Virus record (IMG/VR): IMGVR_UViG_3300044712_002659
Location: 1-40,151 of that record
Reading direction: 5' to 3' (one strand)
DNA from: a virus
DNA length: 40,151 bases
Shown here: piece after piece, positions 2,632 through 14,968 of the stretch
Position numbering within the stretch: the stretch's first letter is position 1
How the letters are laid out: every line of letters begins with the position of its first letter
Notes under the pieces: generated by a model
Databases searched by the model: none
The model's input: only the letters and a program-made list of their open reading frames with translations
Told to the model about the DNA's origin: nothing
Made by a program: the position numbers and the translations under genes

Positions 2632-4323
2632 TTATGGTGTCACCAAAAACGCATGAACGGACAGGTGCGTAGCATCACCATTCCCGCCTTTGTGTGCAGT
2701 GACTTCAAACTCCTCGCCCGGATTTATGTCATAGTTGCTGAGGTTTATATCTACCCCGGTGGAGTACCAGGTGGCGTCGGCCGCGATGGCCAACCCGTCT
2801 GCCGAGCTGTTCACGTCCGCGCCGGCGATTTCAATGCTCGCTTTCCCATGTGTCGCATGTGTATCATGGGTTTTGCTGTATACCTCATAGTGGACGCAGT
2901 AGGACGTCGGGAGTTTCCAGATCAGATTAGAGTTAAGATCCGATTGAATAAGGTCGTGGTTGTCAGCGTCCTCGTACAGCCCAGGGATAATTATAAGTAC
3001 TTGCCGCGAGGTCCCGCCTCCATAAGAAAGGGCCGTCACGTCGTGATCGACATCCAGCGGAGGTCCCTGCCATGTTAGAAGGTTTGCGGTGATCGCCCCG
3101 CACCGGCCATACTTTACGATCCCGTCATGCGTCGCCCGGAGGCTCATGCCGACTTTTATAGAACCGGTCATATCCACGCCCATCGTAATGGTGCTCGTGC
3201 TGGCAGGGGTCGCCGTAAAGTTGGCGGTCGGAACATTTGTCCATCGGTCACTACCCAGGATGGAGCGGGTTTGCTGAAGTGTCTTTTTTGTCCAGGCAAA
3301 AGGATCCGCGCCGGCCATGAGGAAATCATTCTCCGCCGTAGCGGCCGGAAACACCAACCCGCTGTCTTTGATCAATTTCCCGGTCGTCCCATCGAATGCT
3401 GCGACGTGACTGTCGACTGACGCCGCGGGGCCGATAACATCGCCGGCGCCAGCGCCGTCCGAGCCCTTTTGCGCCATCAAATCCCAGTAGGTAGTGTTGG
3501 TAGGCGCGTTCCCCGTGGTCGCCAGCTTACAAATATACGATGCACCATTATAGGATACGGCATCGTTGATGACGTACGCCGTGCCCGCCGCATACGCCCC
3601 CTTCCAGGTGATGTCTAAACCGTCGGTTCCGTTGGTCCCGTCTGTCCCGTCGATCCCCGCGGCGCCCTGCAGGCCGGTCTCCCCTTGAAGCCCCTGGGAC
3701 CCTGTTTCCCCCTGGGCGCCTTGCGCCCCCGTTGCGCCTTTGTAATTTTTCCACAGCCCGGCGAAATCGGAGGCAACGGGGGTTTCTATCGGGTCAGTTA
3801 CCCTCAGGATGGCGATATAGTTCAGTTCGGGGTTGAACGTATTGCTGAAGCCAGCGCCGGCATCCGACGAGGCGTAGGCAATGTATGTATAGCCATTCAA
3901 TTCCGCCATCCTCGCGGGACAGGCTATCAGGACAGTGTCGCCTGCAGCGTCGGTGAATGGATACCGGCCGTCAGACTCGGGGCCGCCGGTCACAGTCCCA
4001 TTATGCCAGTCGTACCACTCGTCCTCCCGCGTATGCCATCGGTTCAGGAGATCCGCCAGCCGTGCGGCGAGGGTCGCCGTCAACGTGCTGGCAAAGTTCC
4101 TAATGATCGCATAGTTCTGGTCGCCGGCAGCGGCCTCCAGGTAATTCGTCTTCAGCTCGATATGCGTGTCGTCTGTGACGGTTTCGATCTCGTAGAACTG
4201 ATTGCCGTCCAAGGTGAACAGGTCGCCGGCAGCGGCCTGCTCAGCCCACAATGTACCTACCCCTACAATGCTTTTTGAGCCATTGACGACGGAAACCGTA
4301 CCGATTCGATACCAGTAGCTCAT
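2632..4323 (-). CDS. Tail fibre with collagen-like repeats and a carbohydrate-binding-like module
   Basis: The 563-residue product has several segments. An N-terminal beta domain (about 1-100) resembles fibre-attachment domains that open with a VNGSKSIVGVGTLW motif. A Gly-X-Y collagen-like stretch runs from about residue 196 to 236 (GATGAQGAQGETG and onward). A module at about 238-287 has the aromatic pattern of type 3 chitin/carbohydrate-binding domains (W.G.Y..G..Y...D.V...G..YIC......P....YW). The C-terminal half is beta-rich and contains an oxygen-exposed-type adhesin pattern without recognised catalytic motifs. It lies between the tip-protein block and the last tail gene, so receptor binding is the likely job. 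Trimerisation through the collagen part is inferred from the family. Confidence 0.75.
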   Translation of the reverse strand: MSYWYRIGTVSVVNGSKSIVGVGTLWAEQAAAGDLFTLDGNQFYEIETVTDDTHIELKTNYLEAAAGDQNYAIIRNFASTLTATLAARLADLLNRWHTREDEWYDWHNGTVTGGPESDGRYPFTDAAGDTVLIACPARMAELNGYTYIAYASSDAGAGFSNTFNPELNYIAILRVTDPIETPVASDFAGLWKNYKGATGAQGAQGETGSQGLQGETGLQGAAGIDGTDGTNGTDGLDITWKGAYAAGTAYVINDAVSYNGASYICKLATTGNAPTNTTYWDLMAQKGSDGAGAGDVIGPAASVDSHVAAFDGTTGKLIKDSGLVFPAATAENDFLMAGADPFAWTKKTLQQTRSILGSDRWTNVPTANFTATPASTSTITMGVDMTGSIKVGMSLRATHDGIVKYGRCGAITANLLTWQGPPLDVDHDVTALSYGGGTSRQVLIIIPGLYEDADNHDLIQSDLNSNLIWKLPTSYCVHYEVYSKTHDTHATHGKASIEIAGADVNSSADGLAIAADATWYSTGVDINLSNYDINPGEEFEVTAHKGGNGDATHLSVHAFLVTP

Positions 4324-10544: not shown

Positions 10545-10886
10545 TTAGACCTCCTCGATGGGGCACTGGACGTTGCTTCTATAGCCCACTGGACCCCACT
10601 TTGATTTGATCGAGTTTGCCGAGAAGACGCACACATGCGATGTAGCGGCGATAGGGTGGGGGTACGTGAAGGCGGACCCCTGGTTTGCGGCGAAAAATGC
10701 CAGGAGGATCTGATACTCGGCTTCCGGCATGAGGTTCCAGCCCAGAGGAAATTTGCTCCGCCCGCGGGAAGCGGCAGGGCCGGTCTGGACGTAGTTCGCC
10801 TCGAATTCATCCTTGATCTGCGGCTTGTAGTATTCCTCCTCGCAGTCCCAGTCGGGCAGGGAAATATTTGAGGGCCAGGCGTTCAT
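10545..10886 (-). CDS. Tail tip protein, lambda gpM-like
   Basis: The 113-residue protein contains the F(T)YPHP segment (about 73-77) and a closing beta strand before VQCPIEEV, a layout typical of small siphovirus tail-tip proteins next to the tape measure gene. Its length is close to lambda gpM (about 109). It begins inside the last codons of the tape-measure gene (4-bp overlap) and ends directly against the L-like start. The role in the distal tail is inferred from order and resemblance. Confidence 0.75.
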   Translation of the reverse strand: MNAWPSNISLPDWDCEEEYYKPQIKDEFEANYVQTGPAASRGRSKFPLGWNLMPEAEYQILLAFFAANQGSAFTYPHPIAATSHVCVFSANSIKSKWGPVGYRSNVQCPIEEV

Positions 10887-13324
10887 CTTCCGAATGCCTC
10901 CCGCATACCGAATTTATTATGCTCTATCGCGTCGAGTACGAAGCTGACGACCATCTCCTGGGCATCGAACCGGACCTCCGGCGCCGAGGCTGAAACCTTC
11001 GCCCCGCTTTTGTCGATGACCTCGATCCGGACCGACTGAGGCGCTCCATTCCCGCCTCCGTACTGGCTTGCCATCTTGAAGAAGTCCCTGCGCTGGCCGG
11101 GGGTCATGGTGGACTCGTCGTCCGTGGTGACCGTGAGCCGCTCCCCGGGGCCGATGCCTTTATGATTCCGCGGCAGCATGTCGAGATTGGGAATGATTCG
11201 GTAGAAGGTCGGCTCGTTCCCCATGCCGCCGGTATGCATGCCGAACGCAGTCGTGCCACCTGCGCCGACATGGGCGGGTGCGCCGGTATTCATGCCGGCG
11301 CCGAACAGGCCGCCCCAGTTGATGTTGCCTGCCGCGTTCGCCAGCGGTCCGGTGATCTGTGCCTGGATCATGATCCGGATCATATCCCGGATGATGGAGT
11401 TGGCCAGGTCGGCAAAATTGAGCTTCCCCGTCATGACGAAATCGGTCAGGGCATCGGTCATGCCGCTGAATGCTTTCGTGATAGCATCATACAACTGTTT
11501 TCCGGTGTTCATCGCCTCGTTGGCGACGTCCTTCAAACCGAGGCTCATAGCGCCGAAGGGATTCTGCATGGCGATCTCGCGGCTCAGATCGGCAATCGCC
11601 TTGAGCGTGCCTATAACCTTGTCATTTTGCGCATTCCACCCGGCGGCATCCTTGTGCTGGTCGAGCCCGGCCAGGGTCTGTTCCTGGCTTGCCAGGAGTT
11701 CCTTCTGCAGGCGTATCCGCTCCGTGAGGGTCTCGCTATGCGCCCTGCCGAGCTTCTCGGCTACGTCAAGCTCTGCGAGCTGGCCGTTGATCTCTGCTTC
11801 GCGCGCCGCCTTTAATTCGGCGGGCATCTTCTTCAGGTATTCGGCGTTTTCCTTTTCCCGGAGGTCAAAGAGCTCCATCTCTTTGAGATACACTTCCTCG
11901 TCCTGCTTTTTCTTATCCTTTGCCCGTTTGGCAAAGAACTTGTCCTCCTCTTCCGTACGTTTCTCATTTATATCGTTGATCTTGTCCCAGAGCTTTACGA
12001 GCATCTCGGTCCGCTCTTTATTGGCCTTTTTAAGCTCCGCTTCATCCGGGGCCGGAGGATTGCCCTGCCAATCAGGTTTTTTACCGCCGCCGATCTCGCG
12101 GTAATACCGGAGGAGTTGCTGCGTGGCTTCATCGGGATTGCCCACATTGATTAGCGTCTGTTCAAAGGGCTTTTTCCCTTTTGAGGCCGCCTCCCTCATC
12201 TGTTGATCGATGTCCGGGGTGACCGGTTTCCAGCCTGCAACTCCCATCGCCATATCCTGCAGGGCTTTCTCAGAGGCCATATATCGCTGGCGAAACATAT
12301 CGTTCATCTTGCTGTCGCCCTTGAACATGGCCATAGTACCGCCGATTCTATCAAGGAGCATACCCATACGATACATCTCAGCCACGATATCCCGCAGACC
12401 GTCGCGGAAGGAGTTGACGCCGCTCAAAAATTCCGGGTTCCACTTGATGGACTTCGTTTTCTCGTCAATCGTCACGATCGAATTGGTGAGGATGGTCAAT
12501 TCATACTTCAGCGCCTCGAAGAGTGGCTCACCCGCCTTACCAAGGGCCTGCAGGACAATATCCTTTGTATTCGACCAGAGACCCGCCCAGGTCTTCTGCG
12601 ATTCAATGCCGGCGACCTGATAGGCGGAGAGCTTCTCCATCAGGAAATTGAATAGCCCATTCGCATTGCCCTTGTACTGATTAATATCCTCGTTTCGGAG
12701 GCCGAGGACCGTGGCGATCCGGCTGTTCCTCGGGTCGATCGCGCCGGTCAGGAGCGACCGCGTCTCCTCCCCGAGCTGATTCATCTGGAGGCCGATCGCA
12801 CCGGCCGCCTGGACCATCGCAACGGTGAATTCCTTGACCTGGTTTCGGTTGAACCCCTTGGCCAAGGCAACGGGGAGGGTGACCTGGTAGGCGACGATCA
12901 GTTGATCGAGGGTGGCGATGGTTTGGAGATTGGCGTACTGGAGCTCCCCGATGATATCCTTAGCATCGCCCTGGGCGGCCTTGAGGGCGTCCTGTGCTGC
13001 CAGGGCCTTGCCGCTCATGGCATCGATGTATTTTCCGCCCGTCATGTAGGCTGATGCGATGCCCAGAGTCGCTGTTTCAATCTGCGCGAGGTAGGAGATG
13101 GCCGATCGCGCCGCCATGCCGACGCCGGCAACCGCCGCCGTCAGCGAGATATAACGGGCAATCAGGCTCCCGATCCCGGCATCCAGATTCTTGGATTTCG
13201 CATGCAGTTCATCCGTCTCGCCCTGGGCATCTTTCAAATGCCGTTTGAGATCGTTGAACGCTGCGTCGGTCCGGCTGAGCGCCTCGATGACCAGTTGAAG
13301 TTTTATTTCGCTATTTCCGGCCAT
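10883..13324 (-). CDS. Tail tape measure protein (lambda gpH type)
   Basis: The protein sets tail length and passes into the host envelope at infection. Its 813 residues show an N-terminal coiled region, hydrophobic stretches at about 50-95 (LTAAVAGVGMAARSAISYLA), a long charged coiled coil at about 430-570, and the conserved lambda-H type C-terminal block near 620-660 (QLYDAITKAFSGMTDALTDF, then NFADLANSIIRDMIRIMIQA). The ATG is 9 bp after the stop of the frameshifted chaperone frame and is preceded by GGAAAGGAA. The length predicts a tail of roughly 120 nm by the usual 1.5 angstrom per residue rule. Confidence 0.92.
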   Translation of the reverse strand: MAGNSEIKLQLVIEALSRTDAAFNDLKRHLKDAQGETDELHAKSKNLDAGIGSLIARYISLTAAVAGVGMAARSAISYLAQIETATLGIASAYMTGGKYIDAMSGKALAAQDALKAAQGDAKDIIGELQYANLQTIATLDQLIVAYQVTLPVALAKGFNRNQVKEFTVAMVQAAGAIGLQMNQLGEETRSLLTGAIDPRNSRIATVLGLRNEDINQYKGNANGLFNFLMEKLSAYQVAGIESQKTWAGLWSNTKDIVLQALGKAGEPLFEALKYELTILTNSIVTIDEKTKSIKWNPEFLSGVNSFRDGLRDIVAEMYRMGMLLDRIGGTMAMFKGDSKMNDMFRQRYMASEKALQDMAMGVAGWKPVTPDIDQQMREAASKGKKPFEQTLINVGNPDEATQQLLRYYREIGGGKKPDWQGNPPAPDEAELKKANKERTEMLVKLWDKINDINEKRTEEEDKFFAKRAKDKKKQDEEVYLKEMELFDLREKENAEYLKKMPAELKAAREAEINGQLAELDVAEKLGRAHSETLTERIRLQKELLASQEQTLAGLDQHKDAAGWNAQNDKVIGTLKAIADLSREIAMQNPFGAMSLGLKDVANEAMNTGKQLYDAITKAFSGMTDALTDFVMTGKLNFADLANSIIRDMIRIMIQAQITGPLANAAGNINWGGLFGAGMNTGAPAHVGAGGTTAFGMHTGGMGNEPTFYRIIPNLDMLPRNHKGIGPGERLTVTTDDESTMTPGQRRDFFKMASQYGGGNGAPQSVRIEVIDKSGAKVSASAPEVRFDAQEMVVSFVLDAIEHNKFGMREAFGR

Positions 13325-13333
13325 GACGGGGGA

Positions 13334-13977
13334 TCATTTCCTTTCCTGCACGGTGATCTTCCGGTTGCACGTCTCGCAGTGGTCTTTTTTCAACTCCCGG
13401 CAGACCCGGCAGTATTCCGCAACCGGCGACGCAGTCGTTTTCGACCCCACACCGAGGAGGGAGATCACTGCTTCCCGAAGGACGAGATCTCGCTGTCGGT
13501 ATTCGCTCCAGGGTCTGCACTCGGCAAGGGTGAATCCCCAGAGGATTCTATCCCGGCGGCTGATGTCTCCCCCGGCGAGGAGGATGCAGAGGGCTTCGAT
13601 TTCATCTCCTTTTTCCCCATCGTGGCGCTGATCTTTCCCGCTGCCTGCGTCAGCTTGTCCAACAACAAAGGCAGAGGGTTGCAGGAAAAAAAATCCTCGA
13701 TCACCTGCGCCGTCTGCTCGAGCGTGATCGAAAACTCCAGCTCGGCGGCCAGGGCTTCGAGGTCCTTGTCCCTCGGGCTTTTGCCCTCCTCTGTCAGGAC
13801 AACCGCCAGGACGCCGGGGAGATGAGGGCCAAGCGCCTCGATGAGGGACCGGATCTCCAGGTCGCCGGGGAGCTTAATAAAGCGAACGACCCCCAGGAGC
13901 TGGCGCGTCTGACCCAGGACGAGGGTCCGCTGGACGTATGTCTTGCCGCCGATTTCGTATTTCATTTCACTGCCCAT
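13334..13977 (-). CDS. Tail assembly chaperone, frameshifted long form (lambda gpG-T-like)
   Basis: If ribosomes slip back one base at 13609-13618, translation continues in the -1 frame to a stop at 13334-13336, giving about 214 residues. The second frame has no stop codon, high third-position GC and a sensible protein: after the slip site GDEIEALCILLAGG, then ILWGFTLAECRPWSEYRQRD, then a CRVC-x7-CETC zinc-knuckle-like end. It finishes 9 bp before the tape measure ATG, just as the lambda T frame does. There is no credible separate start codon for it. The two-frame arrangement is known for long-tailed phages. Here it is inferred from sequence only. Confidence 0.8.
13465..13977 (-). CDS. Tail assembly chaperone, short form (lambda gpG-like)
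   Basis: The 170-residue protein is the normal-frame product. Its N-terminal part (MGSEMKYEIGGKTYVQRTLVLG) and the helix-rich middle (LEFSITLEQTAQVIEDFF) look like tail chaperones that coat the tape measure before tube assembly. The C-terminal 50 residues after the slip site are low-complexity (Ser, Pro, Ala, Glu), as expected for a tail read in a frame not under strong constraint. It lies between the tube protein and the tape measure, the lambda G position. AAAGGAGAGCTAC precedes the ATG. Confidence 0.82.
   Translation of the reverse strand: MGSEMKYEIGGKTYVQRTLVLGQTRQLLGVVRFIKLPGDLEIRSLIEALGPHLPGVLAVVLTEEGKSPRDKDLEALAAELEFSITLEQTAQVIEDFFSCNPLPLLLDKLTQAAGKISATMGKKEMKSKPSASSSPGETSAAGIESSGDSPLPSADPGANTDSEISSFGKQ
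13609..13618 (-). promoter_or_regulatory. Probable -1 ribosomal frameshift site in the tail chaperone gene
   Basis: Read on the minus strand the bases are GGGGAAAAAG, with normal-frame codons ATG GGG AAA AAG. After a one-base backward slip a GGG-decoding tRNA re-pairs fully with the preceding G run and a lysine tRNA re-pairs on the A run. Upstream of the site only the normal frame shows coding-like third positions. Downstream the -1 frame does, which places the switch here. Confidence 0.7.
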
Positions 13978-13999: not shown

Positions 14000-14968
14000 T
14001 TAGAACGTCGCGATCGGGCTCAGGAGCACCATCCGGAGAGCGGAGGCGTCCACGTCCACGTTCAGATATGCCTCAAACGGCAGCTCCACCAGGAGGCCCG
14101 CAGGCCCCGCGATCACCGGCGAGTTGGGGCTGAACTTCATCTCATCCATGTAGAAGCTCAGCTTCTCGTTGCCGGCGGAGGCGCCCGTGCCGGCGCCCTT
14201 GGTGAAGTGAAGCGCCAGCGCCGTCTCGGTGTTGGCCACGGCCAAGGCGTAAAGGACGTCGTCCTCGAAGAGCACCTTCACGTTGCCGCTTACCTTTGCC
14301 GTGCCAGGGGGAAGGCTACGGCGCTGCCCGGTCCCGTCCATGACGTAAGTGTTCCCGTCCAGGCCGTTCTCCAAGGAGAGATCGATCGAGGTGGCGATCG
14401 CCAGGGGGTTACCCCCCTGCAAGAGGGATCCCTCGAAGCCGTCGAACGGGGTGTGGCCGTTGTCGGTCGCCGTGGCATCGAAGGTCGCCAGACCGATGGT
14501 CTCCTTCGCCCCCATAAGGGAGGTGGAACTGTCGACCGGCCCCTCCGTTTTTGCAGAGAGTTTGAAACTGTTCACCTTGCAGCCGTTGTAGAGGAGGTAT
14601 TTGGGCGTGGCCAGATCGGTGAACTGTTTCTCGACGCACATGCCCACGGGAAGCGGCGCGATCTTGTACGTGTGGGTGTATGGCGCAGGTCCCCCGGCCA
14701 CGCCGTAGCCCCCGAAGATGTGCTTGAAGAACTTCCCATATTGCGGGGAGAGCTCGAAGTTGATGTCCCCGGCGACGTTCATGTTTCCCCGGACCGGGGC
14801 CTGGGGGTTGCGGTTCGACCGGATGGTCCGCGACGAGCTCAAATTCCGGGAAAGCCGCAGGGATTCGGAGACGAACGGCAGGACGTGGGCGTCCTCAGCC
14901 TCCGGGGTTGTCTTGTACACGGTCTCCGTGTCGAAAATCATGACTGCATTGGCGCCTGATTGCTGCAT
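14000..14968 (-). CDS. Major tail tube protein
   Basis: The 322-residue protein is predicted to form the stacked rings of the tail tube. It is beta-rich. It carries a segment common to long tail-tube proteins of Mu-like siphophages: an N-terminal plug-type region (SLRLSRNLSSSRTIRSNRNP), then VAGDINFELSPQYGKFFKHI and later SIDLSLENGL. It precedes the chaperone gene by 22 bp, the standard position. The length is greater than lambda gpV, consistent with an extra surface domain. The start is preceded by a GGAGGAATAAGCC ribosome site. Confidence 0.82.
   Translation of the reverse strand: MQQSGANAVMIFDTETVYKTTPEAEDAHVLPFVSESLRLSRNLSSSRTIRSNRNPQAPVRGNMNVAGDINFELSPQYGKFFKHIFGGYGVAGGPAPYTHTYKIAPLPVGMCVEKQFTDLATPKYLLYNGCKVNSFKLSAKTEGPVDSSTSLMGAKETIGLATFDATATDNGHTPFDGFEGSLLQGGNPLAIATSIDLSLENGLDGNTYVMDGTGQRRSLPPGTAKVSGNVKVLFEDDVLYALAVANTETALALHFTKGAGTGASAGNEKLSFYMDEMKFSPNSPVIAGPAGLLVELPFEAYLNVDVDASALRMVLLSPIATF

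Follow-up and report, generated by a model that had tools for sequence, protein, structure and literature searches.

A conserved T_TTT_TTN heptamer as the probable −1 frameshift site in the lambda G/G-T-like tail chaperone gene of a Mu-headed phage and its relatives

Introduction

Phage lambda makes two tail chaperones, gpG and gpGT, from one start by a −1 shift, with T encoded in the −1 frame; both act with the tape measure protein, and the slip occurs near the 3′ end of G (PMC5009743). A comparable arrangement exists in P2, in the region between the major tail and tape measure genes, where a −1 frameshift at TTTTTTG yields gpE and E+E′ (91 and 142 aa), and where no downstream hairpin was found, either in P2 or in its Burkholderia relatives (PMC3091744). 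D3112-like phages, which combine a Mu-like head with a siphophage tail, provide a third case (PaMx73 ORFs 35/36; D3112 orf42/orf43): −1 frameshifting at a T TTT TTC slip, spanning codons 116–118 and lying 43 codons before the ORF35 stop, has been proposed for PaMx73, in an account whose passages on this site give no analysis of stimulators (PMC4378225). Both the frameshift mechanism and the gene arrangement are already known from these systems.

Here we analyse a tail chaperone locus in the window, by which we mean the whole 40,151-nt stretch of viral DNA examined (IMG/VR record IMGVR_UViG_3300044712_002659). Its head genes are Mu-like (Portal_Mu, Mu-like_Pro, and Mu-like_gpT), and an AAA protein and a weak match to an integrase core are also present; the window thus appears to come from a Mu-headed and probably transposable phage whose tail is of the lambda type. 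The locus resembles lambda in its two predicted chaperones from one start and its T domain in the −1 frame, but the slip falls ~73 codons before the G stop, creating a long two-frame stretch. As in P2, a T-run heptamer lies between tail and tape measure genes, although the predicted products differ in size from those of P2, and both a stem-loop and a Shine-Dalgarno (SD)-like sequence are enriched in the family to which the window belongs. The closest precedent is the T TTT TTC site proposed for PaMx73, and the window family shares the D3112-type placement of the slip upstream of the tape measure gene and well before the G stop (TTTTTTT in the window, TTTTTTC in most relatives). We confirmed the same heptamer in D3112 orf42, where a slip gives QGFF followed by RPPPVAPD and a −1 extension. 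The two-frame stretch, together with the presence of both stimulators, distinguishes the family described here.

Results

Two open reading frames in different frames lie between the tail tube and tape measure genes of the window:

14000–14968, minus strand: tail tube protein, 322 aa (Phage_tube_2, E 3.4e-51)
13465–13977, minus strand: G-type chaperone, the short zero-frame product, 170 codons, with a conserved core at residues 1–99
13334–13687, minus strand: −1 frame part of G-T as defined by alignment, a hydrophilic linker plus the T domain, 117 codons and a TGA
13465–13686, minus strand: two-frame stretch, which in the zero frame encodes the G C-terminal helix and Ser/Pro-rich tail, and in the −1 frame the linker with the first part of T
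13334–13609, minus strand: T domain (GDEIEALCILLAGGDISRRD...) with a Cys-rich C-terminus, recognized by Cys conservation and a helical model
10883–13324, minus strand: tape measure protein, 813 aa (Tape_meas_lam_C, E 6.4e-23)

A first-pass annotation, made from the letters of the window, had proposed that the chaperone gene conceals a second coding region in the −1 frame, and our analysis confirms this. This −1 frame contains no ATG, GTG, or TTG ahead of the conserved T sequence. It is open from its last upstream stop, at ~13876, down to a TGA (13336–13334) that lies 9 bp ahead of the tape-measure ATG at 13324, an end point that agrees with the earlier description. The high third-position GC noted for this frame was also borne out, with GC3 of 0.80 in the zero frame upstream and 0.77 in the −1 frame past the zero-frame stop.

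Relatives were needed to locate the shift itself. A search with the T domain alone returned one relative, and single-protein queries, whether with the T domain or with the full-length tape measure protein, found almost nothing. The family was opened by an alignment of tape-measure N-termini, followed by alignments of G and T, giving 220 loci in total; both G and T were present in 189, which collapsed to 118 distinct sequences, window included. Slip-site DNA played no part in selecting relatives in any of these searches. In all but one of the 118 distinct loci (117), the T domain, a second domain without its own start, is encoded in the −1 frame relative to G, so that homologues of the −1 product now extend to more than 100 related loci. 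Together with the Mu-like head genes, these homologues strongly support the earlier reading, in which a Mu-headed phage uses a −1 frameshift resembling that of lambda G/G-T. The one exception (L001) comes from a scaffold that has an N gap and, at the join, a short sequence in duplicate.

That scaffold, contig IMGVR_UViG_3300002219_000545, appears three times in our set (L001, L016, and L024), with an NN gap near the G-T join and a duplicated 'ggggacat'. A one-frame G+T gene was considered for these entries and rejected, since the gap and duplication indicate that the apparent fusion is an artefact of assembly; they were set aside. Four loci found with both domains in genome contigs are from Deltaproteobacteria MAGs. 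In one Deltaproteobacteria MAG, Dive100_bin10.46, the module is present twice, as near-identical copies that each occupy their own 4-kb contig (L030 and L031).

A crossover adjoining the T domain was assumed at first, but no common slip site occurred there across loci. Tracing the upstream extent of the open −1 frame led instead to a heptamer of the X_XXY_YYZ type, in the frame of G, within a (D/H)FF motif of the chaperone ~28 codons upstream of the T domain:

13687–13693, minus strand: slip heptamer T_TTT_TTT (codons GAT TTT TTT)

T_TTT_TTN is present in 118/118 distinct loci. By alignment, 87 carry TTTTTTC, 23 TTTTTTT, 5 TTTTTTG, and 1 TTTTTTA, and the remaining two (L106 and L111), which were misaligned by the script, read GAT TTT TTG by eye. 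In the reading frames around it, (i) in 10 loci (nine listed by the script, plus L106) a −1 frame TGA ends directly ahead of the heptamer, and (ii) no −1 stop occurs between heptamer and T in any usable locus. For 25 loci examined by synonymous resampling, the slip-to-T stretch was open in all 25, against a summed probability of ~9.7. For 92 clusters, defined with a simple greedy measure at <60% identity, each locus's own codon usage predicts T followed by TTT at this position in 21.5 cases; it was observed in all 92 (log10 P −70.8, a value that overstates independence because the clusters are related); the direction of the bias is beyond doubt.

These observations bear on whether T could instead be a separate gene with its own, non-standard start, a reading to which the window lends an AAGGAG just ahead of the T domain with an in-frame ATC at 13600. 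In most loci, however, T has no ATG, GTG, or TTG ahead of it in its own frame, and the non-AUG codons that might serve are variable. A separate start would also leave unexplained both the invariant heptamer and a −1 frame that is open all the way up to it. We consider independent initiation of T extremely improbable.

Placing the shift at the heptamer also revises where each frame codes. The first-pass annotation had −1 coding begin at about 13618; the frame is indeed open there, but the shift lies ~70 nt further upstream, and −1 coding starts at 13687. The loss of coding character that it reported for the normal frame at 13609–13618 was roughly correct in position, although it coincides with the beginning of the T domain rather than with the shift. 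Conservation of the zero frame continues from 13687 to ~13625, which indicates that this stretch codes in both frames.

Candidate stimulators flank the heptamer on both sides:

13702–13706, minus strand: SD-like sequence AGGTG, 9 nt upstream of the heptamer, within published criteria (PMC4066793)
13637–13678, minus strand: stem-loop, predicted fold of −20.2 kcal/mol, starting 8 nt after the heptamer

By the same published criteria (PMC4066793), an SD-like sequence is present in 62 of 92 clusters, compared with 27.3 expected from synonymous resampling, and the corresponding duplex has a z of −1.04 ± 0.11, against −0.52 to +0.08 at control offsets. Downstream, the 60 nt past the heptamer have lower folding energies than their synonymous variants (mean z −1.77 ± 0.15, n=92), a result with which dinucleotide shuffles agree, whereas control windows that begin 24 or 42 nt downstream, or that lie upstream of the heptamer, give z of −0.12 to −0.71. 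The 5′-pairing probability rises from 0.16 to 0.75 after eight spacer bases. For the window's own hairpin the individual z is only −1.39. RNAalifold returned no single consensus hairpin for 116 sequences, and covariation at named pairs was no better than in some slid versions; folding energies were accordingly computed per locus in place of a family-wide hairpin. In the light of this missing consensus, it seems to be the place and strength of the structure that are kept, and not the exact pairs.

The slip had initially been assigned further downstream, and two elements there require comparison with the heptamer:

13609–13618, minus strand: slip site proposed in the first-pass annotation, GGGGAAAAAG, not found in relatives
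13633–13639, minus strand: in-frame G_GGA_AAG at the 3′ edge of the predicted stem-loop, found in the window and two other loci only (L063 and L096)

G_GGA_AAG is identical to the lambda heptamer, GGGAAAG. In the reading frame, GGGGAAAAAG forms the codons ATG GGG AAA AAG; these offer G_GGG_AAA and G_AAA_AAG, neither of which is a complete X_XXY_YYZ heptamer. Both A_AAG and G_GGA_AAG are prone to shifting in E. coli, where V_VV.A_AA.G ranks with the best heptamers and the best tetramer is A_AA.G (PMC4066793), and a slip at either element would give a product of the same length. The predicted 214 residues of the first-pass annotation are obtained wherever the −1 shift occurs, so that length cannot separate the candidate sites. 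The relatives argue against both elements: set against T_TTT_TTN in every distinct locus, GGGGAAAAAG occurs in no other locus checked and is absent from the crossover regions of the relatives (0/117 loci scanned between slip and T, a count that requires the end of the motif to lie inside the stretch and stops just short of the window's own copy), and an in-frame X_XXY_YYZ of any kind is found in this interval in only 8/117. Nor was a conserved stimulator found near either element, and G_GGA_AAG shares bases with the 3′ arm of the predicted stem-loop. A main shift at GGGGAAAAAG or at G_GGA_AAG is very unlikely in our estimation; GGGGAAAAAG is probably not the main slip site, although either element might add a minor second shift in the window phage.

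The T run itself raises another question, since a −1 mRNA could arise by RNA polymerase slippage rather than by ribosome slippage. The run in the window comprises eight T's, and transcriptional slippage has been named as a possible reason for avoidance of UUUUUUU (PMC4066793). However, ribosomes are favoured by the codon phase of T_TTT_TTN and by both flanking elements, the SD-like sequence upstream and the stem-loop downstream. Moreover, the 87 of 118 loci with TTTTTTC have only six T's, which is short for polymerase slippage. Taken with the phase and the stimulators, this makes a transcriptional origin highly improbable.

The two products expected from ribosomal slippage at the heptamer are G (170 aa, 18.0 kDa) and G-T (214 aa, 23.8 kDa), with the first 97 residues in common. 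Residues 98–123 of G-T differ between this version and that of the first-pass annotation. A heptamer slip would give a junction peptide spanning EDFFFLQPSAFVVGQADAGSGK, and also EDFFFLQPSAFVV, in a protein that lacks the zero-frame residues SCNPLPLLLDKLTQAAGK, whereas a shift at GGGGAAAAAG would leave ...LTQAAGKISATMGKKGDEIEALC in the product. AlphaFold2 models of G contain a confident core (residues 1–99, pLDDT mostly 80–96), followed by a less certain helix (102–123) and a disordered tail; the last core helix (86–99) ends near slip residues 95–97. The predicted slip is thus close to the end of the folded core, such that the G C-terminal helix would be exchanged for the linker plus T. The −1 frame was modelled as a low-confidence linker, a helical T domain (core pLDDT 83–91), and a Cys-containing end. 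Over the same bases, the hydrophobic content of the linker is half that of the zero frame (0.24 versus 0.51, n=95). Cys96, Cys104, and Cys107 of the −1 part are invariant in 25 sequences, with a frequent fourth Cys and variable spacing, and this cluster at the T C-terminus (about 13400–13334 in the window) is possibly a metal-binding knuckle.

Foldseek searches with the G model identified the HK97 tail assembly chaperone 2ob9 as the best PDB match (probability 0.87 with a weak E of 0.12, 11% identity, TM-score 0.32/0.46), as well as several BFVD entries named tail assembly chaperone (E 5e-3 to 2e-2, the best BFVD E of 3e-3 being weak). The modelled resemblance of G to the HK97 chaperone fold is no more than suggestive. 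The fold search with the T domain gave no match. At the sequence level, no match was found between the window G or T and the lambda families, nor any homology of G and T to D3112 by HMM (orf42 tested, scores below 1 bit). With 25 members of each domain, no credible Pfam or PHROGs profile match was obtained for G or T, a single member matching PHROG 1442 'tail assembly chaperone' at E 0.033, and tblastn with several members against 50,697 GenBank phage records found nothing. The G/T family appears to be without annotation in Pfam, PHROGs, and GenBank phages.

Discussion

The frame relation, the conserved heptamer, and stimulator signals above chance, all read from the sequences of the family, lead us to regard −1 ribosomal frameshifting of the lambda G/G-T type at T_TTT_TTT as very probable in the window phage. 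Slippage in vivo, its rate, and the binding partners are what we infer in the following scheme. The majority of ribosomes would translate gene G into the 170-aa chaperone, which by analogy with lambda would coat the tape measure protein. A minority would slip back one base at GAT TTT TTT, both tRNA-Phe re-pairing on UUU UUU, aided by the SD-like sequence and the stem-loop. Slipped ribosomes would then read the −1 frame to 13334, and the resulting G-T would continue after residue 97 as a hydrophilic, flexible linker leading into the T domain. Again by analogy, T would recruit the tail tube protein.

A broader proposal is more tentative, and we hold it to be possible rather than probable: that SD-like sequence, T_TTT_TTN, and stem-loop constitute a three-part cassette in the middle of the chaperone gene, where one DNA stretch supplies two working C-termini (the G helix, and the G-T linker with a Cys-rich, possibly metal-binding T), where the paired stimulators set a higher G-T share than in lambda, and which represents a distinct 'early slip' variant in a large phage group that includes Mu-headed members.

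The frameshifted tail chaperones of these more than 100 distinct loci form a large additional family that is apparently unannotated, and in which the slip site was located by homologues and not by the look of a single sequence. Gene callers would overlook the T domain and give the short form its Ser/Pro-rich tail. As both stimulators are enriched among natural variants, the family offers a ready set for measuring how the frameshift rate is tuned by SD-like sequence, heptamer, and hairpin.

Three further loci (L012:3277-3373, L013:3387-3489, and L029:3269-3359) combine a related tape measure protein with a different G gene. The G gene ends in AAA AAC TGA/TAA with a preceding A (A_AAA_AAC), where a −1 shift would lead into a T-like extension; judged from its sequence, this would be a late-slip version beside the same type of tape measure protein. 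Elsewhere in the window, downstream of a J-like gene, an ORF of 563 aa (2632–4323, minus strand) contains a collagen-type repeat (PF01391) and matches CBM_5_12 weakly; it is possibly a tail fibre.
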